Part shown: piece by piece, positions 5,389 through 28,672 of the stretch
Layout: each line of letters starts with the position of its first letter
Numbering within the stretch: the stretch's first letter is position 1
DNA from: a virus
Reading direction: 5' to 3' (one strand)
Virus record (IMG/VR): IMGVR_UViG_3300037808_001156
Coordinates: 1-31,933 of that record
DNA: 31,933 bases
Translations under genes and position numbers: made by a program
The notes under the pieces: generated by a model
Told to the model about the DNA's origin: nothing
The model's input: only the letters and a program-made list of their open reading frames with translations
Databases searched by the model: none

Positions 5389-6181
5389 AATCTAACCTCG
5401 GTCTCAAATACTTCGGATGTCGAGGAGCCCCTCCATCAGTTAAACCAAAGTATTCGAATGTAATTATGTCGCCGATTTTAGGTGGGTTATCTCGTTCAGC
5501 ATCTGTGAATCCAACTCCAACATGAAATGTTCGCTCATTTCGTTCATCAGTCCATGTGCAGATACATCCTCCAAGTCTTCCTTCATGCCGACCTTTGCCA
5601 GGTAAGTGGTCAATTACTGTTGCTTCTGCATCTTCAAAAATCTTAACTTTCAAAATGTTCTTGCTTCTCTTTCGTTCATATCTGCTGTTGGGATTTCTAA
5701 TCATTACTCCTTCTCCTCCTATCGCAGTATACTCGTCATGAAATGTTTGCAAACTTTCTTTGCTCTGAATTACAGTTTGTTCAACAACTTCAACATAATC
5801 TGGTAGAGCCAATTGCTTAAGATTGTCGTATACTATGTCAAATGTAAACCCATCTAAGTTTGGAGCATCAAACACGAAATAACGAACATTCTTCCATCTT
5901 TCATCTGGATTATGTCTTTTTACTACAGAACATGTCTCTTGGAAATTACCAATGGGACTTCCATGGCTAGTAAATACCAACTCGCCATCTAAGTGACATG
6001 GCACACCTTTTAATGGTTCTGTGAACCATGCAGGAGCGTGTATGATATTATTTCCGCGCGTAAGGAGCTTCTCGCCATCCCAATACGCACGAATACCATC
6101 TATTTTGAAACTCATGAGCCAGGATGTAGGGTCATGTTTACTACTATTGTATTTCTTTGCGAGCATGACTAAATTTGACAT
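5381..6181 (-). CDS. ATP-dependent DNA ligase
   Basis: It joins nicks by the adenylyl-enzyme route, probably sealing Okazaki fragments during viral replication. From ATG 6181 the protein has 266 residues. The nucleotidyltransferase domain shows motif I SFKIDGIRAYW (nucleophile K26), LDGELVF, motif III YFVFDAP, motif IV EGVMIRNP and motif V ILKVKIF. An OB-fold follows (FHVGVGFTDAE... IITFEYFG). This is the minimal two-domain type found in viruses and some bacteria. The frame stays open to an ATG at 6253, but a TATA box at 6205-6210 lies about 26 bases upstream of ATG 6181, and family members begin close to 'LAKKY', so 6181 is preferred and the mRNA would be almost leaderless. It is transcribed against the tail genes on both sides. 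Confidence 0.9.
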   Translation of the reverse strand: MSNLVMLAKKYNSSKHDPTSWLMSFKIDGIRAYWDGEKLLTRGNNIIHAPAWFTEPLKGVPCHLDGELVFTSHGSPIGNFQETCSVVKRHNPDERWKNVRYFVFDAPNLDGFTFDIVYDNLKQLALPDYVEVVEQTVIQSKESLQTFHDEYTAIGGEGVMIRNPNSRYERKRSKNILKVKIFEDAEATVIDHLPGKGRHEGRLGGCICTWTDERNERTFHVGVGFTDAERDNPPKIGDIITFEYFGLTDGGAPRHPKYLRPRLDYE

Positions 6182-6279: not shown

Positions 6280-7266
6280 ATGGCAGTGCGTACAGGCTCG
6301 GATTTACTTCGGATGGGACTAATAAAAGAGGTGACGTATGGGACTGACCCAGGTACGAAACTGTATTCGTGGCCACACGTAATTACGTCGTTTCCAAATC
6401 CTACCGAAGATTATGGAAGAACAATGGTAAGAAGTTTGGGTTCTGGAAGATTGTATGGAATGACATACGATACTAAAGCAGAATTCGCATTCACAGTTGA
6501 GTCATTAGTTAACGACGATGGTGCAGTTAGCCTTCTTGCAGCTGCACTTGGAGCAGGAGCTATTGCTCCAGCAGACACATTAGTGTTAGGAGACTTAGAG
6601 TCATTCACTATCGAAACTGGTCTATCTAACTCTTCAGACCTTTCTTACGAATTATACAAGGGATGCAAAGTTAACACTCTTAGTTTGGAAGCTTCAGAAA
6701 ATGAGCCGCTAAAAATTACTGTAGATTGGATTGCACAGCAAATGACAAGAGCTACATCTCAAGTCACTCGCTCTTCAGGTAGTGGAGTAGGAGCAGTTGG
6801 AGATTTAGTAGACCCAAGTGCAGTTCCTAAGCAAATGGGAGACATCACTATTACTGTGAAGCCTATTACTAATGGAGTTGTTGGAAGTGCGCTGACTGGT
6901 TTAGTTATGCGAAACTTCACATTAGAGATAGCGAATAATTTAGAGAGGATTTATAGTCTTGGTGGAACTAAGTTCCTTGGTAGTCTAATGGAGCAGGGCA
7001 TGGATATTACTGGGTCGTTTGCGCTACTAAGCCAGAATGATACGTTTGCAAACAGATTTGCTGCAGATGGAGCTAACAATGGGGTTCAGTTAGAGATTGT
7101 TATTGCTGATATTGGAAAAGCAGCAGCTGAAGATGTGAAGATTGTTCTTCCAAAATGCCGATTACTGTCGAGAGACTTTGCTAAGGATGTGACAGATGCA
7201 GGACCGATTGAAGAGTCCTATGACTTTCACTGCCAGTCAGCTCCGACAGTGACCATGAATGAGTAG
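6280..7266 (+). CDS. major tail tube protein
   Basis: The 328-residue protein starts at ATG 6280. The N-terminus (GLIKEVTYGTDPGTKLYSWP) and the central YKGCKVNTLSLEASENEPLK are typical of tail tube proteins of the Phage_tube_2 kind, where a 'Y.GC.v..l.l....ge.l..t....' strand pair lies in the tube beta-barrel. Later segments such as FTLEIANNLERIYSLGG, MDITGSFALLSQNDTF and VQLEIVIAD continue the strand-rich pattern. It sits directly before the tail assembly chaperone and tape measure genes, the standard order in siphoviruses. It is predicted to polymerise as hexamer rings around the tape measure. The last segment (GPIEESYDFHCQ) resembles the C-terminal strand of tube subunits. Confidence 0.75.
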   Translation: MAVRTGSDLLRMGLIKEVTYGTDPGTKLYSWPHVITSFPNPTEDYGRTMVRSLGSGRLYGMTYDTKAEFAFTVESLVNDDGAVSLLAAALGAGAIAPADTLVLGDLESFTIETGLSNSSDLSYELYKGCKVNTLSLEASENEPLKITVDWIAQQMTRATSQVTRSSGSGVGAVGDLVDPSAVPKQMGDITITVKPITNGVVGSALTGLVMRNFTLEIANNLERIYSLGGTKFLGSLMEQGMDITGSFALLSQNDTFANRFAADGANNGVQLEIVIADIGKAAAEDVKIVLPKCRLLSRDFAKDVTDAGPIEESYDFHCQSAPTVTMNE

Positions 7267-9782: not shown

Positions 9783-10490
9783 TTGACACAAGAAGAAGCA
9801 GATTCAATCATTGATACAATCAACGACCGTGCAACGGAAGTTCGACAGCTAATAATTACAATAGGCTCTATCCTTGCGCTTCTCATGCCCGCTGTTGAAA
9901 TGCTGGGTATTCTCGACATTACACCCTACGGTCAAGGTGACGATGAGTGGATAGGTGATGATAATTGGGAATGGGAAGATGACTTCACCTGTGGTGATGG
10001 TTCAACTATTCAAGCCTCTTTGGTCGATGACGGCTACAAGAATTGCCGTGATGGTTCCGATGAACCCGATGAGCCTATTGTTATTCCTCCCACAGAAAAC
10101 AATACTACGGTTGTAATACCGCCTGATAACAATAATACGAGCAATCAGACTACCAATGAAACTATTGAAGAAGATTGCGCCCCCAAAATGTGGGATGCCT
10201 TTCATCAATACGACAATAATACCGGCAACATAACCCTACATTGGGATGCCGACCTTACTTGTGATGATGCACCACACAACTTAACCTTGATTTGGACCTT
10301 CTATCATAATGATACAGGGAATTGGTCGGGTATTCAAGAGGAACACACCTATGAAACCTATTATCAGAATTGGGATTATGTGAATATATCATTCGCTGTT
10401 CCCGAAGGTCGATACGACATATTCTCCACTTTCAGATTCAATGATAATTATACAATTGGAACAGATTGGTATGCTGTGGAGTTGTTATGA
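9783..10490 (+). CDS. membrane-anchored protein with LDL-receptor-A-like motif and many N-glycosylation sequons
   Basis: The TTG start is supported by GGAGGTGA seven bases upstream. The 235-residue protein begins with a short acidic helix and one hydrophobic segment (about residues 22-46, QLIITIGSILALLMPAVEML), then an acidic Trp-rich linker. Residues 68-94 read FTCGDGSTIQASLVDDGYKN followed by CRDGSDE. This matches the calcium-binding half of an LDL-receptor class A repeat, with only two Cys (C70, C88) of the usual six. About a dozen N-x-S/T sequons follow (NNTT, NNNTS, NQTT, NETI, NITL, NLTL, NDTG, NWSG, NISF, NYTI). I recall truncated LDLa motifs of this type in surface proteins of Marine Group II archaea. 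Position between tape measure and adhesin suggests a virion or cell-surface role; that role is inferred. Confidence 0.7.
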   Translation: MTQEEADSIIDTINDRATEVRQLIITIGSILALLMPAVEMLGILDITPYGQGDDEWIGDDNWEWEDDFTCGDGSTIQASLVDDGYKNCRDGSDEPDEPIVIPPTENNTTVVIPPDNNNTSNQTTNETIEEDCAPKMWDAFHQYDNNTGNITLHWDADLTCDDAPHNLTLIWTFYHNDTGNWSGIQEEHTYETYYQNWDYVNISFAVPEGRYDIFSTFRFNDNYTIGTDWYAVELL

Positions 10491-20183: not shown

Positions 20184-20539
20184 GCTGTAGCTCTCCTAGC
20201 AGCGGCTCTTGCGGCTAGTGGCTGAACATGAAGCTCAAACTCTTTGGCATCGAACTTAACTAGAACTTCTTCACCAATTGCCCACAAGCTATCGAGTTGT
20301 CGTATCATTGCAGTTGGAATGCGCATCCACTTTTGGTCATCATAAGTTGTCCTATTTCGTACGCGAGTAGTGTCGTCTCTAGCATAATCTTCTTCTTCAA
20401 CCAATCGAAAAACCACCGAGTTATCATCGTTGATTAGTCCTTTCCAGTTAGTTCCTTCCACAATTCTCATAGCTATGTGCTTTGGAAGTCCGACGTATCG
20501 TCCTTCTCCTAATCGCACAATCTTCATTGTTCCATACAT
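20180..20539 (-). CDS. tandem AbrB/SpoVT-like DNA-binding protein
   Basis: ATG 20539 is supported by AAGGAG at 20548-20553, eight bases upstream. The 119-residue protein has two related halves. The first, TMKIVRLGEGRYVGLPKHIA, and the second, QKWMRIPTAMIRQLDSLWAI followed by GEEVLVKFD, both show the 'v.iP......l.l..Gd.v.v' pattern of swapped-hairpin AbrB domains. Such proteins bind DNA as transcription regulators or antitoxins, and two copies in one chain could act as a built-in dimer. A basic Ala/Arg tail (AARAAARRATA) ends the protein. The first 92 bases overlap the end of the upstream hydroxymethylase gene in another frame. It may regulate viral early genes. Confidence 0.6.
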   Translation of the reverse strand: MYGTMKIVRLGEGRYVGLPKHIAMRIVEGTNWKGLINDDNSVVFRLVEEEDYARDDTTRVRNRTTYDDQKWMRIPTAMIRQLDSLWAIGEEVLVKFDAKEFELHVQPLAARAAARRATA

Positions 20540-21545
20540 TTTGTTCGCTCCTTATATTTTCGTACCAGACTCTCATTTTATCGTTTACTAGGTATCTGGT
20601 GAAATCTTCGTTTTCGTAGTATTTGCTGCAAATTAGTGCCACTAGCCCTCTTAAGTACGTGTTCTCTATACAGTCAAGGTAGGGTAGTGTATATATAGCT
20701 TTCCCTTCTTCGACACTTGTGTATAAGTCAGTGAGCGCTGCCAAAATCTGATGTTTGTCTTGTAATTTCATAGCAGGACAGAGGCTACCATTCTTATGCC
20801 GACCAGTTTTGTTCATGTAGTAATTAAGTCGGTCATCTAGAAGTTCGAAATCTGACGGATATACGTGAAAGTTGTTTTGGAATACAGAATAGGTACCAAC
20901 TTTTGCTCCTATCTCACTTGCCATCATCATTAGTAAATGAGAATAAAGGAAGCAATCTAGATACCAGCCTTTCAATGCATCTTGCGAGCGCATCATGGTA
21001 GTCAAGCAAAGCTTACCATCTATGAATTGAAAGTGGAAGCCATACGTACAAGGAACAAAGTCACGTTCATGACAAGGAATATCCCAACAAAACATACCAG
21101 CATGTCGAGTATTTGGGTTTGTTCTTAACTTTGAAACGGTGTGGTCCCACTGACTAAAATCGTATCTAGCAATAGGATGCTCCATGTGATGTAGAACCTG
21201 TCCATATGTGTAAGGATATTCACCATTTGGAGATGTGCGCCATTTGTCATAGAACTTCCATTCTTTGTGGATAAAACCTGGGTTGAGACCAAGTATGATA
21301 TCGAAGAACTCAGTAATAATTCCAACATGTTGTAAACCAAAGTGAGAGCCTATGCAATTTTGTGGGTCTGACAACACCATAGTAATGTTGTGCAGTTCTT
21401 TCATTCCTGCAGTTCCGCCTTCCTGCATTGCCCAAGTTCCAACAGTTCTATCCTGTTGAGACCCATGCATCTGTAAAACAAGCAATGCTCGTTCGCTCAA
21501 TTTATCTACGTCACTATCCCATATTGGGTGTATTGGTGTTCTCAT
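20448..21545 (-). CDS. predicted dCMP hydroxymethylase (thymidylate synthase family)
   Basis: The 365-residue protein has the thymidylate synthase fold signature: GEYPYTYGQVLHH (E109), RTNPNTRHAG (R147), DFVPCTYGFHFQF (catalytic C166), MRSQDALKGWYLDCF (R186, S187, D189, G193, D197) and NNFHVY. With no gap, D197 aligns with Asn177 of E. coli ThyA and Asp179 of T4 dCMP hydroxymethylase. T167 after the catalytic Cys matches T4 (Cys-Thr), where ThyA has Cys-His. In this family, Asn prefers dUMP and Asp prefers dCMP. The enzyme should therefore make 5-hydroxymethyl-dCMP, or 5-methyl-dCMP, using methylene-tetrahydrofolate. Its start overlaps the polymerase stop (ATGA). The C-terminal basic tail (IRRRTIRRTSKAH) overlaps the AbrB-like gene and may be an extension or a frameshift artefact. 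Confidence 0.8.
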   Translation of the reverse strand: MRTPIHPIWDSDVDKLSERALLVLQMHGSQQDRTVGTWAMQEGGTAGMKELHNITMVLSDPQNCIGSHFGLQHVGIITEFFDIILGLNPGFIHKEWKFYDKWRTSPNGEYPYTYGQVLHHMEHPIARYDFSQWDHTVSKLRTNPNTRHAGMFCWDIPCHERDFVPCTYGFHFQFIDGKLCLTTMMRSQDALKGWYLDCFLYSHLLMMMASEIGAKVGTYSVFQNNFHVYPSDFELLDDRLNYYMNKTGRHKNGSLCPAMKLQDKHQILAALTDLYTSVEEGKAIYTLPYLDCIENTYLRGLVALICSKYYENEDFTRYLVNDKMRVWYENIRSEQNVWNNEDCAIRRRTIRRTSKAHSYENCGRN

Positions 21546-24025
21546 AGTATCACATCCATTCCTATACGCGCGAGAGTCGCGTCGAGTTTCTTGCCAATGG
21601 CATCATACCAAATACTTTGTCTGTCTACAAAGGGTTCCCAGATTTCTGGAACTCCTGCATCTTCATCAATCGGGATAATTCCTTCATGTTCTGGATAGCC
21701 CTCAGGGCATCCCTTTACCTTAACCATAAAGACCCTATCCCCTTCTCCATATGTCCACGAGAAGGCTTCTTGGCCATATTCCACTGCCTTTATGTGTTGA
21801 GCGCGAACTTTGTATTTATGAAGTGGCTTGCTAATAGATTTGGAAAACGATAACTCATGTCCAGGCTTTGCAAACATTTCTGCCTTCTTCTTGTTAACAA
21901 ACTCTTGAATGTCCTTCGTATCTGCACCATTTAAGAGCAGTCGAAATAGTTCTGCTTGAGCAAATCTAAACATTGTGTGAGTATCACTCTTCACTGTCTC
22001 ATATCCGGTGACATCAATCTCAAAATCTTTATCAACGCCTTCTTCCCATACCTTTAATCCTGCGTATCGCTTCTTAACTCCTTCAACCAGCATAGAAGCA
22101 TATTGTTTTTCAAACTTAAGTGACATAGTATGTTCTTCTACGCCAATCGTGAAATCCATATCGATTATTTCTTCTTCTGTCCATGGCACAAAGTTTAGGT
22201 CTACAGGCTTTGTCATGAAATCATTATATGCGTCGTTGATTGTGTCTTGTAATTTGACGAAATACTCTTGACATTCGTGTTTGTCCCAATCATCTGGTAA
22301 TTTAGCGTAGACTGAATCAGTATCTCCATAAATTGGAACTGCCCATTCATCTTGTTCTACCAACCACCAGGTGTATTTAATTAGGAACTCGCCAGTCCAT
22401 GTAATCGCGCGAGCAATACGCTTATCATTCAACCTGAAGCTAGGCAAGCTTGTCACTCCATAAAACGATAGTTGTAGAGTTTTCCAGGCTCCTTGCTCTA
22501 TCCAGAGCTTTTTGTATAGTGCTTCATCTCCATCTTGCCGAGCCTGAATTGCTGCAGCTCTAGTTTTCTGGCGTTGGTCTAGCACATACGATACTGCTTG
22601 AGGAAGGATTCCTTGCTTATCGAGTCTAAAATAAGTCTCATTTACACAACACTTCGGTCCGCTAAATGAGCTAGGAACCATCGTATCTGGAGAGATATTA
22701 CACGATAGAATGATGTTGATATACATGGCCGCTATGTCTAAACATCCAACATTATGGAACACTCCAGCTGGTGGAAGGAACACTTTTGCGGCTTCGAACG
22801 TTTGCTTTATATACGGCGGCTTTGAGGGAAGTATGGTTTTCCCTTTGAAAGTACGTAGTAATTGAGCATCGATTATTCTAGAGTTCATATTCCATGCATT
22901 CCATGGATAAGGAAATCTGCACTGCTGTGCAACATAATACTCAGTAAGTCCGCACTTTTCATCAATGGCTAATGCAGCTTCCACGTCCACTATGTTATAG
23001 AGAATTAACTCTTCTAAATCTTTTCGATTTCCATCCCATGCTTTATCTATTCTTTTAGTAGGTGGAAGCTTACCCCAACCTAACTCGTATTCAGATACGT
23101 ATTTAAGGCTGTAGGAAGTCAGTTCACGTATCCCATCTTTGTTTACGCTTCTTCTACCGCCAACTAATCTCTCATACGCGACTTTCAAATCGAGTATGTC
23201 TAAACCTTTGATGTGAGGCTCAACATGTTGTGAACCCCTCCGTCTAGATGCCCAAGGTTTTTCACCGTATGGACTCAATGTTTGTGCTAATGGGTCCATT
23301 CCATTACCTTCTAGTCTCAACATTCTATTCACTATATATGACATATCGAAATACTCTACATTCCATCCTGTCACAATGTCTGGTCTGTGTTGCTCCCACC
23401 AATCGCAGAAATCTATCCACATTCTCTCTTCAGAGTTTGATATCCGCACAGTAGTGGCCTTACCCATGCGATGTGAATCATACGAATCCCGGATATAATA
23501 GCCATTAAAATCTGCGGACTCTGCGTCTTCTCCTCCTTCCCACCATCCGACAACAGCAATACTGTCAGTGTAGCTGTCGTGCATAGTCATACACAACACA
23601 GGTTCAGGCGTCTTCTCTGTATTGAGACACATATAGGTCTCAATATCTATGTTGCAAACTCTACGCTCATGTGATAATTCTATCTCTTTGTCTACCAAAT
23701 ATCTAGTGACATATTCGACATCAGCTTCCCATGTTTCTGGGAAAGTATTGAGAACTCCTCTATAGTCTTTCCTAGTCAAAGCATCGACAGTAAGTTTCTT
23801 TAACTTCTCTCCTCGAGAGCCAATGTACTCTCCATCTTCATCTATATCTGTAATCTTTCGATTCGCCATAGTCGAGATATTCGCATCATGCTTAGCGTAG
23901 AAGTAAAGTGGGAACCACTCCTCTTTCTGAACAGTCAGCGTACCGCCATCTCTATGCTGTGTCCATATCTCAGGAATTGAGCGCTTCTTATCTTCGAAGC
24001 GTTGTACTACATTTACGATTCCCAT
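21542..24025 (-). CDS. family B DNA polymerase with 3'-5' exonuclease
   Basis: This is the 827-residue replicative polymerase of the virus. The exonuclease motifs are intact: ExoI NIDIETY (D127, E129), ExoII NVEYFDMSY near 220 and ExoIII YNIVDVEAA near 343. Polymerase motif A is LDIAAMYINII (near 428), motif B KTLQLSFYG (near 518) and motif C IYGDTDSVY (near 565). The catalytic Asp residues are present. Motif A lacks the usual SLYPS, and motif B has Leu where most family B enzymes have Asn (K...NS.YG). ATG 24025 follows GAGGTAT and overlaps the end of the kinase/deaminase gene by 13 bases; the stop overlaps the hydroxymethylase start. The unusual active site could reflect use of modified nucleotides, which is an inference. 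Confidence 0.95.
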   Translation of the reverse strand: MGIVNVVQRFEDKKRSIPEIWTQHRDGGTLTVQKEEWFPLYFYAKHDANISTMANRKITDIDEDGEYIGSRGEKLKKLTVDALTRKDYRGVLNTFPETWEADVEYVTRYLVDKEIELSHERRVCNIDIETYMCLNTEKTPEPVLCMTMHDSYTDSIAVVGWWEGGEDAESADFNGYYIRDSYDSHRMGKATTVRISNSEERMWIDFCDWWEQHRPDIVTGWNVEYFDMSYIVNRMLRLEGNGMDPLAQTLSPYGEKPWASRRRGSQHVEPHIKGLDILDLKVAYERLVGGRRSVNKDGIRELTSYSLKYVSEYELGWGKLPPTKRIDKAWDGNRKDLEELILYNIVDVEAALAIDEKCGLTEYYVAQQCRFPYPWNAWNMNSRIIDAQLLRTFKGKTILPSKPPYIKQTFEAAKVFLPPAGVFHNVGCLDIAAMYINIILSCNISPDTMVPSSFSGPKCCVNETYFRLDKQGILPQAVSYVLDQRQKTRAAAIQARQDGDEALYKKLWIEQGAWKTLQLSFYGVTSLPSFRLNDKRIARAITWTGEFLIKYTWWLVEQDEWAVPIYGDTDSVYAKLPDDWDKHECQEYFVKLQDTINDAYNDFMTKPVDLNFVPWTEEEIIDMDFTIGVEEHTMSLKFEKQYASMLVEGVKKRYAGLKVWEEGVDKDFEIDVTGYETVKSDTHTMFRFAQAELFRLLLNGADTKDIQEFVNKKKAEMFAKPGHELSFSKSISKPLHKYKVRAQHIKAVEYGQEAFSWTYGEGDRVFMVKVKGCPEGYPEHEGIIPIDEDAGVPEIWEPFVDRQSIWYDAIGKKLDATLARIGMDVIL

Positions 24026-25026
24026 CGGTATACCTCTATATTAGTGTGCGATAACAGCTCTTTAGCAACAGCATCGCGATAAGAATTATCGTATATAATG
24101 CGGACAATACCCGAGTTGATTAGCGCCTTGGTGCATTCTCCACATGGTTGAGTAGTTGTGTAGATTGTGCCGCCCCTCAATGAACTCGAGGCGTTGAGTA
24201 TTGCGTTGATTTCAGCATGGACTGTACGCTCAAGGCGTAGATTTTCGCCAGATTGCATGCCAGCTCGTGGATTTACTGTACAATGTGGCACACCGCTTGG
24301 CGCTCCATTGTAGCCAATTCCTACTACCTTGTTATCTAGAGCTATTACTGCACCTACGTGACGTGTAAGTCCTGTAGAGCGTCTCTTAGCTAAATGAGCC
24401 ATGCTCATAAAATAATTTGTCCATGTGATTCGATGCTGATTTAGATGTACCATTATTTGGTCAGCCAATTCTTCAGTTGTTTTTCTGTTAGTGACTACAG
24501 TATCTGCATGTAGTAGTGATGATATTATCCCACTACCGCCAATCTTATACTCTGTATGATGGGTGTTAATTTCGATTACATCGTTGGTTCCACACATCAT
24601 CACGTTAACAATGTCATTCTCAAATGCCTCCAAATCTTGTAATTCCATATCTATGCTTTCATCATCTGCTAATAGCGCATTCCATATTTGTTCTATAGGT
24701 CCATTCCACTTTAGGTAGATGTAAGTACATGGAGTTTCTCCGTCAAGCGCTTGGAATATAGGGAACCACTTATCTGCGCATTCCATTCTATTTCTCCAAG
24801 CACTGAATGCTACAGAGCTTGGTATCTGTCTGTCCATTATCAAATCAGTATTTCGCCAATCAATGTCGGCAAATCCATGAGCTTTTCCTAATACGTACGA
24901 GTCGATTGCATCTTTATGGACTACATCTGGTCTTCTACCATGATGTTTGATATCCATTCTACGTGCTAACTCTTTAGCAAGTGTGGTTTTACCTGTTCGT
25001 GATAGGCCTTCAATTACAATAAACAC
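24013..25026 (-). CDS. fusion of deoxynucleotide kinase and dCMP deaminase
   Basis: The 337-residue protein has two domains. Residues 1-190 form a P-loop kinase of the thymidylate/deoxynucleoside kinase fold: GLSRTGKTT at 7-15, and LIMDRQIPSSVAFSAW with the DR and SS residues of the lid and substrate region. Residues about 205-337 form a deoxycytidylate deaminase: YFMSMAHLAKRRSTGLTRHV, GYNGAPSGVPHC, the zinc motif HAEINAI (near 271) and PCGECTKALINSG (near 295). The deaminase makes dUMP from dCMP. The kinase may phosphorylate dTMP or a modified dCMP. A single chain could channel between the two. It is the second gene of the operon headed at 25129 and lies directly before the polymerase. Confidence 0.85.
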   Translation of the reverse strand: MFIVIEGLSRTGKTTLAKELARRMDIKHHGRRPDVVHKDAIDSYVLGKAHGFADIDWRNTDLIMDRQIPSSVAFSAWRNRMECADKWFPIFQALDGETPCTYIYLKWNGPIEQIWNALLADDESIDMELQDLEAFENDIVNVMMCGTNDVIEINTHHTEYKIGGSGIISSLLHADTVVTNRKTTEELADQIMVHLNQHRITWTNYFMSMAHLAKRRSTGLTRHVGAVIALDNKVVGIGYNGAPSGVPHCTVNPRAGMQSGENLRLERTVHAEINAILNASSSLRGGTIYTTTQPCGECTKALINSGIVRIIYDNSYRDAVAKELLSHTNIEVYRWES

Positions 25027-25030
25027 AGTA

Positions 25031-25129
25031 TCACTTCAGCGCATCCTTGACATCTTGTTCTATTGTGCTACCATGTAATTTAGAAATGATTGACCATGTA
25101 GCTATTGCTTGTAGTATGTTTCCGAGCAT
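25031..25129 (-). CDS. 32-residue microprotein heading the polymerase operon
   Basis: ATG 25129 to TGA 25033-25031 encodes MLGNILQAIATWSIISKLHG and a charged end (STIEQDVKDALK). The ATG lies about 25 bases from the centre of a perfect TATA box, so it would be read from a leaderless mRNA. The stop is four bases before the kinase/deaminase start. The product looks like a short amphipathic helix. Promoter spacing and tight packing support a real gene, or at least a leader peptide. Confidence 0.5.
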   Translation of the reverse strand: MLGNILQAIATWSIISKLHGSTIEQDVKDALK

Positions 25130-25148
25130 ATTATTCCTAAGCCCCCCT

Positions 25149-25160
25149 AGTATATATACG
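25149..25160 (-). promoter_or_regulatory. archaeal TATA promoter of polymerase operon
   Basis: TATATATA at 25151-25158 within CGTATATATACT (minus strand) sits 22-29 bases upstream of ATG 25129, in the short gap after the glycosyltransferase stop. It should drive the microprotein, kinase/deaminase, polymerase, hydroxymethylase and the downstream regulators. Confidence 0.65.
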
Positions 25161-25163
25161 TAT

Positions 25164-26486
25164 CTAATCTTGTTGTGTATCAATTCCACACGTATCCTTC
25201 AGCGCGCGAATGACTTGCGCAGTAGACAGTACAAAGCTTCCCATTCTATGATTAAATTCGTACTTTTCTGCAAGCTCATCAAACCTAGCCTGCCTAATCT
25301 CATTCAACATTCTATCGCAAGATACTGCAATGTCTTGAGCGCTAACCTTACCATTAGCCACATTCACATAACCAGGATATAATGCCGATGCCAATCTTGT
25401 ATACTCATTAGCAAAAGGCATAACTGGTAGAGACTTCAGATGCATTGCTTCTCTACAAGCGCAACCACCATTTGCTTCTTCTACAAATAGTGAGCAATGA
25501 ATAGTAGCATGCGCTAAAAGATTTGCATATTCTACACGGCTGAGATTATCTTTAGATGGCATGAAATAATTTGGTAGCTTAGATAGTTCCTCATTCGTTA
25601 TGTATTTCTGTCCAGGATTGGTAGCAGTCCAAACAAAGTCATCTCGTAGAGTTCCAAGTATTTCCATAGCCTCTTGAAATAGTGCGAAGTTGGTATAGTC
25701 TGGATTAGTAATTCTATTTGGGAACACTATAAGGTCCTTGCCTATAGAATACATATTGTCATCTAGCCTATCCCAACCAACTTCTACTGCAGCGCTAAGT
25801 TCCGTTTCAGAATATCCAAATCTAAATACGTAGGCTTTCTTAGTGAGAGCTTGTACCACATGGTCGGTATGAGTATGTGCTGCACCTTCCATGAATTGGT
25901 TTAGATTTCCATCGCAGCAAAATCCTGCTATATCCGCGCGTAAAGCGCCCTCTACTTGTCTCCACCAGTTTGCAGACATTTCTTTGTAGTCTTGCGCTTC
26001 TGGTGAAGTTTTTGCATGCAAAGGACTATCAAGGAAATAGCAGCAATTCACTATGAAAAGATTGTCTGGAGTTTTTACTTCCTTCTTTGGATGTCTGAGA
26101 TACGATAAGTAATTTCCAGTTTGTTCTGGTATGTTGTTCCAGAAAATGTAATTGTCTGCTTCACTCTGGAACCAGTCATCAATCGTGTGAGTGTTCTTTT
26201 CATTAAAGAAATATCGATATCTGTTAGCATCAACTGGAGCATCTGGAGATGTATGCCATAGAACTACATTATCAAGTGGAATATCCAAGCCCTTTAACAA
26301 CATATCATAATCCAAGCAATTTGGTTCGTCGGGAACCAGAATGTTGAATGTAAGTTCGCAGTCAACTTGCTTGAACAGTTCCTCCATAAATCCCCTCATC
26401 ATATTTGTATTGGAGTCTCCCATTAGGAGCCACTGTTTTCCATCATTTACGCTAGGTTGTAGCGTGTACATTATGCTTAACTTCAT
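25164..26486 (-). CDS. GT-B type glycosyltransferase
   Basis: The 440-residue protein starts at an ATG overlapping the stop of the epimerase gene (ATGA). Its C-terminal half carries the donor-binding pattern of GT-B enzymes: KDLIVFPNRITNPDYTNFAL near 250, the strand FVWTATN, and EEANGGCACREAMHLKSLPV near 333-352. The last element corresponds to the 'E..G....EAM..G.PVi' nucleotide-sugar motif of GT4-like families. The N-terminal half (NILVPDEPNCLDYDMLLKG ... LWHTSPDAP) would form the acceptor domain. No membrane segment or signal is seen, so it is cytoplasmic. The acceptor could be hydroxymethylcytosine in viral DNA, a virion protein or a host glycan. The co-operon enzymes probably supply its donor sugar. 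Confidence 0.75.
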   Translation of the reverse strand: MKLSIMYTLQPSVNDGKQWLLMGDSNTNMMRGFMEELFKQVDCELTFNILVPDEPNCLDYDMLLKGLDIPLDNVVLWHTSPDAPVDANRYRYFFNEKNTHTIDDWFQSEADNYIFWNNIPEQTGNYLSYLRHPKKEVKTPDNLFIVNCCYFLDSPLHAKTSPEAQDYKEMSANWWRQVEGALRADIAGFCCDGNLNQFMEGAAHTHTDHVVQALTKKAYVFRFGYSETELSAAVEVGWDRLDDNMYSIGKDLIVFPNRITNPDYTNFALFQEAMEILGTLRDDFVWTATNPGQKYITNEELSKLPNYFMPSKDNLSRVEYANLLAHATIHCSLFVEEANGGCACREAMHLKSLPVMPFANEYTRLASALYPGYVNVANGKVSAQDIAVSCDRMLNEIRQARFDELAEKYEFNHRMGSFVLSTAQVIRALKDTCGIDTQQD

Positions 26487-27436
26487 CCTTCCTTCCTCTG
26501 TTCATATAGCCAGTCGACATTTTCTTTCAACCCTATTCCAAACGGTTTCATAGGTCTCCATCCAAGTTTCTGGCGAATTTTTGTGGTATCTGGCTTGCGC
26601 TGGACTGTGTCTCCAGCCCATGCGGGTTTGTGTGTGATAGTCAACTGACTCACATCTATAGATAAATAGCGAGCAATCATAATTGCCAGATTCTTAATAG
26701 AAATGTTCTCTTCACTAGCTATATTCAGAGTAGTGTTGATGCATTCTTCATCCAAAGTTGTGCACATCATAGCGAATGCGCGCGCAACATCATCTGCATG
26801 AGTAAATGAGCGGGTCTGCTTTCCGTCTCCATAAAGATACAAGTTCTTTTTGTTGGCTATCAATCGTCTAAACACATCAGGAATAACATGAGCTTTTCCA
26901 TCCTTAATATCTTCATGTTCTCCTGGCCCATATACATTGAATGGCCTACCAATAATAAACTCTCTATCGTACTTCTCACATAAGGCGCGAGTGAATCTCT
27001 CTCCTTGTAGTTTAGTAAAGCCATAGTTATTTGTTGGAGGAGGAATCTTATACTCATCAACATCTGATTCTACACAGATTTCAAATCCATTTTGGAATAC
27101 CATACTAGATGAGCAGTATACGAATCTTCGAGGAATTCGAGACTTCAAGAATGCTTCTAGCACATTCAAATCTACTCGCGCGTTATGCCTGCAAATATCC
27201 CACTCTTCTTCAGCAAGATACTTTCCACCACCTACTTTTGCGGCCATGTGACAGACAACATCAATCTTGTGCATAACTATTGCGGTTGTTAATTCTGTGA
27301 CTGCATAGGATAAGTCTAATGTCTGTGTAGCAGATTCTTGTAAATCCACCGTCACTACGTAATGGCCTTGCTGTTCTAGTATTGTCTTAATTCTCTGGCC
27401 TATAAAGCCTTCTCCTCCTGTGATTAGTATATTCAT
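26483..27436 (-). CDS. NAD-dependent nucleotide-sugar epimerase/dehydratase (extended SDR)
   Basis: The 317-residue protein has the Rossmann motif ILITGGEGFIGQR (6-15), the active-site Ser region VYCSSSMVF (109-111), YGFTK (Y138, K142) and RPFNVYGPGE. YLYGDGKQTRSFTHADDVAR follows in the substrate domain. This is the standard order of extended short-chain dehydrogenases acting on nucleotide sugars. The AAKVGGGKYLAEE segment and GDGKQTRSFTHADD recall GDP-mannose 3,5-epimerase and related UDP-sugar epimerases or UDP-xylose synthases. The exact substrate cannot be read from the sequence. It lies between the dehydrogenase and glycosyltransferase genes with four-base ATGA overlaps on both sides, so the three probably act in one pathway. 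Confidence 0.85.
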   Translation of the reverse strand: MNILITGGEGFIGQRIKTILEQQGHYVVTVDLQESATQTLDLSYAVTELTTAIVMHKIDVVCHMAAKVGGGKYLAEEEWDICRHNARVDLNVLEAFLKSRIPRRFVYCSSSMVFQNGFEICVESDVDEYKIPPPTNNYGFTKLQGERFTRALCEKYDREFIIGRPFNVYGPGEHEDIKDGKAHVIPDVFRRLIANKKNLYLYGDGKQTRSFTHADDVARAFAMMCTTLDEECINTTLNIASEENISIKNLAIMIARYLSIDVSQLTITHKPAWAGDTVQRKPDTTKIRQKLGWRPMKPFGIGLKENVDWLYEQRKEG

Positions 27437-28641
27437 TGTTCATCCTCCCATACAAAATTGGAATTGGTGCCTAGCGTTCCAGACGGGTCTACTACTTTAG
27501 TGTCTCGCCCAAAACTAAGCGAATTCGAATAATCATCGTGCGCAGTGGCCAGAATAACTACATCGGCTTTGGTTATTTTTTCTTGAATATCATCATCGAT
27601 TACAGATATCATATTCATATCGTATCCACGTTCGGTCAATTCTTTATGCACATCTACTATAGGGTCGTGAACGTGTATGTCATAACATTCTTCTGCTATG
27701 CAACTATCGATTATTCTAAAGCTTGGGCTTTCTCTGCAATCGTCTAATCCAGGTTTGTAAGTCAGACCAAGAATCACAACTGACTTTCCAGCCAACGAAG
27801 TATCTGGGAACAGGTCAGTTATCAGTCGTCTGTCTAGTGTCTGATTGTAATGGTCAGCTGCTGATGCAAGAAGCGACTTAGTTCCTGTAGCATGTGCTAA
27901 CATCTGCCAATCTTTGTTTAAGCAATACGACCCAACAAATGAGGGGAAAGATATTCTTCCTCTCTTATAACCATCAGTCATCATGTTTCGAACCACTCGA
28001 TTATTTGCTCCCAACATTTCAAATTGCTCGGATAATTCTGTGCCAGCAGCAAACTCAATGTATCGCATGATGTTATTAGAAATCTTGGCACACTCTGCTT
28101 CGAGCGCTGTTCCAGCTATGAACTTCGGAAAAACCCTACCAAACGCTCGCATGAACTCATTAGTAGTTATTATCTGCGCAGTTCCAGTTGAACCAATAAT
28201 TTGAGGTAGTTCATCTAGTTCATCTAAACCGTGTCCAAGAAGTAATCGTTCTGGTGCATGCCAAATAACTCTGTCGAACTTTTCAGAAATAGCATCACAA
28301 GTTCCAGGTGCTACTGTGGAGCGCAACACAACATTAGTTTCCAATTCTAAGTCCTTTACAATACTCTCTATATGCCTAAGAATAGGATATCCATCTTCTA
28401 CTGGAGTTCCTACAGAAATGAATGTCCACTCACAAGGCTCGTCATCAGTGATGAGATATTCTTCTACTTCATCGTGAAGAGTCTCATTGAGATACGGCTC
28501 TTCCCATGGTAAAGTTCCAGTGATAACCTGATTTAACAGTTCCTCATTGATATCTACGAACTTAACATGATGTCCTTTAGTCATGAGCCACGCTCCTAAA
28601 GGAGCGCCCACTCTTCCTGCACCTATGATTCTGATTCGCAT
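27433..28641 (-). CDS. UDP-glucose/GDP-mannose dehydrogenase family enzyme
   Basis: The 402-residue enzyme oxidises a nucleotide sugar to its uronic acid in two NAD-dependent steps. It shows the N-terminal Rossmann motif RIIGAGRVGAPLG, FISVGTPVEDG, RSTVAPGT and HAPERLLLGHGLDELDELPQ. The helix EAECAKISNNIMR (K187, N190) and the catalytic loop SFVGSYCLNKD (C240, K243, D244) are also present. The C-terminal domain has VVILGLTYKPGLDDCRESPS. All catalytic residues are in place. UDP-glucose and UDP-HexNAc or GDP-mannose specificity cannot be separated by eye. It heads the sugar operon behind a TATA box; AAGGAG at 28648-28653 also precedes the ATG. Confidence 0.9.
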   Translation of the reverse strand: MRIRIIGAGRVGAPLGAWLMTKGHHVKFVDINEELLNQVITGTLPWEEPYLNETLHDEVEEYLITDDEPCEWTFISVGTPVEDGYPILRHIESIVKDLELETNVVLRSTVAPGTCDAISEKFDRVIWHAPERLLLGHGLDELDELPQIIGSTGTAQIITTNEFMRAFGRVFPKFIAGTALEAECAKISNNIMRYIEFAAGTELSEQFEMLGANNRVVRNMMTDGYKRGRISFPSFVGSYCLNKDWQMLAHATGTKSLLASAADHYNQTLDRRLITDLFPDTSLAGKSVVILGLTYKPGLDDCRESPSFRIIDSCIAEECYDIHVHDPIVDVHKELTERGYDMNMISVIDDDIQEKITKADVVILATAHDDYSNSLSFGRDTKVVDPSGTLGTNSNFVWEDEQ

Positions 28642-28664: not shown

Positions 28665-28672
28665 TATATATA
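28665..28672 (-). promoter_or_regulatory. archaeal TATA promoter of sugar operon
   Basis: TATATATA directly follows the helicase stop and is centred about 27 bases upstream of the dehydrogenase ATG (28641). At normal archaeal spacing the transcript would start at or next to the ATG, leaving the AAGGAG at 28648-28653 untranscribed. That site could still serve read-through mRNA from the upstream operon. Confidence 0.6.

Follow-up and report, generated by a model that had tools for sequence, protein, structure and literature searches.

Glycosylated cytosine is known from bacteriophages, and it blocks restriction and CRISPR nucleases. In IMG/VR virus record IMGVR_UViG_3300037808_001156, three adjoining sugar genes lie directly upstream of replication and base-modification genes, which raises the question of whether this virus makes a sugar of its own and places it on cytosine, as an earlier note on this DNA had proposed. 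We analyzed the whole stretch of 31,933 bases, referred to here as the window. An ORF check placed the three sugar genes on the minus strand at 25164-28641, and the features of this region are as follows.

28665-28672, minus strand: TATA-box-like element TATATATA, 31 nt 5' of the dehydrogenase ATG
Between this TATA box and the dehydrogenase start, minus strand: ribosome-binding site AAAGGAGAT
27433-28641, minus strand: nucleotide-sugar 6-dehydrogenase (UDP-glucose/GDP-mannose type), 402 aa (TIGR03026)
26483-27436, minus strand: extended SDR, similar to GDP-mannose 3,5-epimerase and GDP-fucose synthase, 317 aa (PF01370, E 3e-48)
25164-26486, minus strand: predicted GT-B glycosyltransferase, divergent and GT4-like, 440 aa (profile comparison; low-confidence folds)
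25151-25158, minus strand: second TATATATA, preceding the replication/base-modification operon
24013-25026, minus strand: thymidylate-kinase-like domain fused to dCMP deaminase (PF00383, E 5.5e-22; phrog_174, phrog_761)
21542-24025, minus strand: family B DNA polymerase, PolB (PF00136/PF03104)
20448-21545, minus strand: thymidylate-synthase (TS) homologue, dCMP type (PF00303, E 6.9e-20; equivalents of Cys146, Thr147 and Asp177)

The earlier note had described a three-gene sugar operon with ATGA junctions, one TATA promoter ahead of it, and an operon of kinase/deaminase, polymerase and predicted dCMP hydroxymethylase directly downstream. This arrangement was borne out. ORFs, strand, coordinates and overlaps agree, with ATGA overlaps between dehydrogenase and SDR (ACAATGAAT, 27433-27436) and between SDR and transferase (AGGATGAAG, 26483-26486), and the downstream gene order matches. 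The 8-mer TATATATA occurs at three sites in the whole window, two of which head the sugar operon and the next operon. The sugar operon is carried on the replication strand, between the PolB operon and the gene after a putative primase, whose label comes from sequence reading and which had no match in the databases scanned. The structural genes of the window are on the plus strand, apart from the sugar operon; among them are a collagen-repeat protein (57-2195) and an LDL-receptor class A-like protein (9783-10490).

A sole relative was found in IMG/VR, contig IMGVR_UViG_3300030329_006293 (G001). Its genes run primase-like, next gene, dehydrogenase, SDR, transferase, kinase/deaminase, an extra ORF, PolB and TS homologue, which is the order of the window bar one gene. 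The extra ORF (193 aa; 6535-7116 of the G001 stretch, L004), between kinase/deaminase and PolB, was not seen in the window. Protein identity between the two viruses is 45% for the dehydrogenase, 55% for the SDR, 54% for the transferase, 63% for PolB and 54% for the TS homologue. Since G001 keeps the block at 45-55% identity, the operon arrangement reflects more than chance. The expression signals have counterparts as well: TATA-like GGTATATATG / TATATATG at -27 of the G001 dehydrogenase gene, AGGAGGT preceding that gene, and CTTTATATAGG before the next (replication) operon, where the window has its second TATATATA. In both viruses an ORF of 25-32 aa, with a TATA-like box ahead of it, separates the sugar and replication operons (window 25030-25130, minus strand; L004 about 5538-5616).

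The co-occurrence of operon and predicted hydroxymethylase, proposed as a check in the earlier note, was found in G001, where both stand together and the TS homologue keeps Asp177 and Thr147. Viral scans for further relatives, run with proteins, an alignment and two degenerate motifs, recovered the G001 contig alone, so the co-occurrence amounts to two genomes. Scanning genomes for the motif WWRQVEGA yielded 119 matches attributable to chance, most of them in GC-rich bacteria, and tblastn identified no relative among them. In the marine virus AG-345-D19, a PolB match, visual reading revealed neither sugar genes nor TS genes.

We then considered what each enzyme is likely to do. The dehydrogenase scored 200.8 bits against TIGR03026 (cutoff 189.8), and its catalytic Cys lies within VGSYCLNKD, a motif kept in both viruses bar one residue. 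The Lys-Asp after this Cys resembles UDP-glucose/GDP-mannose enzymes, unlike the N-acetylhexosamine type (WecC, GHCIAVD). As the profile matches were mixed as to substrate type, the sugar substrate is not fixed by the sequence. For the SDR, the best NCBIfam match was GDP-fucose synthase and the best PDB match was GDP-mannose 3,5-epimerase (GME; profile E 9e-35), and it is possible that the sugar donor derives from GDP-mannose. Motif alignment shows Tyr-x3-Lys in the SDR, together with the histidine of HVIP, a fucose synthase motif; Met replaces the catalytic Cys of GDP-fucose synthase and GDP-mannose 3,5-epimerase. An arabinosyl route through UDP-glucose dehydrogenase and the SDR, suggested in the earlier note, fared poorly. 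Both viruses have SSM where ArnA and Maribacter phage Molly have STSE, which puts Met in place of the decarboxylase Glu. Without this Glu of ArnA-type enzymes, a UDP-xylose/arabinose (UDP-glucuronate decarboxylase) route is unlikely.

The transferase copies of the window and G001 had no match in Pfam, PHROG and NCBIfam where tested, nor in PDB by sequence. Its GT-B assignment is a prediction, drawn from profile comparison and weakly from low-confidence fold models. Two AlphaFold models, built from a two-row alignment, had a mean pLDDT of 39. With the second model, GT-B enzymes topped the Foldseek list, and matches under 1e-3 came from this model only; in VIA, the models gave Z <8 with other Rossmann folds mixed in. 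Because the models are poor, we take these results as hints of GT-B and no more. The fold of WecB (UDP-GlcNAc 2-epimerase) topped Foldseek, but a WecB-like identity was rejected at the level of the sequence profile. When 301 Chloroflexota genomes were scanned with the transferase, ten weak matches, a number not above chance expectation, included two queuosine mannosyltransferases.

After this weak genome scan, and thus post hoc, we compared the pair of viral transferases with profiles of three families by hhalign. Against a 48-sequence profile of tRNA-queuosine mannosyltransferase (QTMAN), the pair scored 40.4 (E 1.2e-4, 181 columns), while 40 column-shuffled control profiles reached at most 23.4; no match was obtained with a generic GT4 profile (25 sequences) or a WecB profile (30 sequences). 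As single copies, the G001 transferase scored 42.0 and the window transferase 27.6. When 25 other proteins were run as a panel, scores above 25 came from true GT4 enzymes only and the best non-glycosyltransferase reached 24.2, so the window transferase alone is marginal. True GT4 enzymes such as WcaL likewise match the QTMAN profile, and GT4 membership is therefore supported more firmly than the type of acceptor. Of the three profiles tried, the transferase thus appears nearest to QTMAN, a GT4 enzyme whose acceptor is a nucleobase. The GT-B transferase of the earlier note is in this way backed by the QTMAN match and the weak fold hints, and not by any match in Pfam, PHROG or NCBIfam.

In the neighboring TS homologue, the equivalents of E. 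coli positions 146, 147 and 177 are Cys, Thr and Asp, the last two being the same in G001, and the catalytic Cys (T4 Cys148) and Glu60 are aligned in both viruses. Position 177 is Asp in the window, G001, T4, phage G and RB69, and Asn in ThyA, Vi01 and Molly. In an alignment without RB69, T4 was one column out of register; once RB69 was included, the T4 Asp fell at 177. At position 143 (position 145 of T4, near the hydroxymethylation site), T4, phage G, Molly and Vi01 have Asp, whereas the window has Phe with Asp one residue earlier. Trp80 and Leu143, the hydride-transfer residues of ThyA, appear absent from the TS homologue, although the alignment around 80 is loose. Identity to all hydroxymethylases compared is distant (about 20-24%), a tree gave no resolved placement, and by profile score phage G gp319 was nearest (110.9, vs 66.7 for RB69). 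Bacillus phage G gp319 (L009 2899-3945) is annotated as a thymidylate synthase but has Asp at 177; genes for thymidylate kinase and dCMP deaminase lie near it, and it is itself likely a dCMP-modifying enzyme.

Position 177 is the dUMP/dCMP switch (PMC6400193, PMC5175136, PMC8670742), T4 Asp179 sets dCMP specificity (PMC6400193, PMC5175136), and positions 147 and 177 are the best discriminators between ordinary TS homologues and those on phage contigs with modified cytosine (PMC8670742). The enzyme is thus predicted to be a dCMP hydroxymethylase or a related C5-modifying enzyme. The claim of a dCMP hydroxymethylase held for the cytosine-modifying type, through Thr147 and Asp177, and for the product it is a prediction from residues. 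Related enzymes make 5-hydroxymethyl-, 5-hydroxy- or 5-methyl-dCMP (PMC13390438, PMC5175136), and any of these may be the product; judged from the residues, hydroxymethyl would be the likeliest group.

Several known systems resemble this locus in part. The glucosyl-hydroxymethylcytosine system of T4 likewise groups a dCMP-type TS homologue and PolB with a GT-B transferase: beta-glucosyltransferase is encoded close to genes 42 and 43. T4, however, draws on UDP-glucose from its host and has no sugar pathway of its own, whereas the window virus has sugar genes, and the T4 beta-glucosyltransferase shows no detectable sequence similarity to the window transferase. The latter had no match to PF09198/phrog_7922 in these sequence comparisons, which would not reveal a remotely related fold. 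In the arabinosyl-cytosine system of RB69/Mosigvirus, kinase, TS homologue and sugar-nucleotide genes also lie beside PolB, but the sugar genes are isomerase-, kinase- and nucleotidyltransferase-like, with no 6-dehydrogenase. Molly has the same four functions in a contiguous dehydrogenase-SDR-transferase-TS block (L013 5995-10754), a likely pentose-on-modified-uracil operon of a bacterial phage. It differs in the Asn177 (dUMP type) of its TS homologue, in an SDR with the decarboxylase Glu, and in a T4 betaGT-like transferase unrelated in sequence to that of the window; its block was assembled independently of the window's. The hypermodified thymine cluster of SP-15/LIS04 shares a virus-encoded UDP-glucose dehydrogenase accompanied by transferases, with dehydrogenases about 24-26% identical to that of the window and a thymine-derived modified base in SP-15 (PMC5977210). 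Pairwise profile comparison found no homology between the window transferase and those of T4 (betaGT), RB69 (ORF003c), Molly, SP-15 or LIS04. QTMAN (PF12038 plus a GT4 domain) is colinear with it over the C-terminal GT4 domain plus the stretch just before that domain; the window transferase differs in having no PF12038 match and an N-terminal half that is not recognizable.

The nearest PolB matches in the phage collection were haloarchaeal tailed viruses, and the G001 capsid protein was nearest a Methanobacteriales virus. Together with the TATA boxes, these suggest an archaeal host, whereas the G001 portal is nearest bacterial phages. For archaeal tailed viruses, deazaguanine pathways have been reported (PMC8651126), and dC of halovirus phiN is fully methylated (PMC6210493, PMC4284463). 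A literature search of partial coverage returned no report of a glycosylated base in an archaeal virus.

From the genes, their order, the conserved catalytic residues and the conservation of the block, all of them observed, we infer every reaction, the identity of the sugar and its acceptor. We lean towards the reading that an NDP-sugar made by viral enzymes is transferred to cytosine modified at C5 in the viral DNA, which we consider probable. The TS homologue would add a one-carbon or hydroxyl group at C5 of dCMP. The fused kinase/deaminase, a candidate kinase for modified dCMP, would by analogy with T4 phosphorylate this product and trim dCMP, and the viral PolB would incorporate the modified nucleotide into DNA. 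Meanwhile, the dehydrogenase would oxidize C6 of an NDP-hexose to yield an NDP-hexuronate, and the SDR would epimerize it or form a related isomer, a donor that the host need not supply. The GT4-like transferase may then attach the sugar to modified cytosine in DNA, probably for evasion of restriction and CRISPR. The glycosylated cytosine of the earlier note gains partial support, from the TS type, co-occurrence, location and transferase likeness, and the neighborhoods of T4, RB69, Molly, SP-15 and LIS04 also speak for it; the note's arabinosyl route and its sequon argument for virion glycosylation fell away. Weighing against the preferred reading are the basis of two genomes, the transferase's lack of a significant database family and its poor fold models, the post hoc nature of the QTMAN match, the Phe at position 143, and the distance of the TS homologue from the hydroxymethylases compared. 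More tentatively, and with the balance against so specific a picture, the base would be an undescribed one, in an archaeal virus, with a self-made uronic-acid-type or epimerized sugar on C5-modified cytosine, placed there by a QTMAN-branch DNA transferase of a new lineage.

Glycosylation of the virion or host surface, in which tail or capsid proteins would receive a uronic-type sugar or a host glycan would be remodeled, is an explanation that we regard as unlikely. Enzymes of the dehydrogenase, SDR and GT4 types are usual components of surface polysaccharide and archaeal N-glycan pathways, and the family matches of the dehydrogenase include AglM, a UDP-glucose dehydrogenase that serves N-glycosylation in archaea. 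The operon is, however, on the replication strand and adjoins a dCMP-type enzyme in both genomes, and a Pfam scan of 20 window ORFs gave no match to an oligosaccharyltransferase or flippase family. The virus had also been credited with sequon-rich proteins, yet N-glycosylation sequons are not enriched in the structural proteins, their counts being equal to or below the shuffled expectation; this removes the note's support for virion glycosylation, though that explanation keeps some probability. Doubtful to a like degree is a variant of the preferred reading in which a 5-hydroxy-dCMP synthase, such as RB69-type phages have, would supply the 5-hydroxycytosine through which the sugar is joined directly to C5. 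RB69-type TS homologues are reported to make 5-hydroxy-dCMP, and the RB69-type sugar linkage runs through 5-hydroxycytosine (PMC13390438). RB69 ORF048c shares Asp177, Thr147 and the MRSQ / LD-x-F/Y stretch with the window protein, but the profile score favors phage G gp319.

The two modules could also be independent neighbors, a 5-methyl-dCMP or other nucleotide enzyme beside an unrelated sugar operon, held together by replication-module linkage. The evidence is from two genomes only, replication-module gene order is conserved anyway, and phiN, whose dC is reported as methylated only (PMC6210493), is a known case of an archaeal virus with methylation alone. Under the published rule, Asp177 makes a ThyA of the ordinary kind less likely. 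Trp80 and Leu143 also appear absent, in an alignment that is loose around 80, and we rate this explanation as quite improbable. Action of the transferase on tRNA, at a queuosine-like base, instead of DNA would fit QTMAN as the closest profile tried; with no queuosine genes recognized among the window ORFs scanned, and a dCMP-type TS homologue and no tRNA enzyme as the conserved partner, we consider it very improbable.

If the preferred reading is true, this virus would coat its DNA with sugar much as T4 does, via a differently built sugar pathway. If the virus is also archaeal, building the sugar itself and using an unrelated transferase, the strategy would have arisen more than once and in more than one domain, and hosts among the archaea may possess corresponding defenses. 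The transferase would also offer a new tool enzyme for the labeling of modified cytosine.
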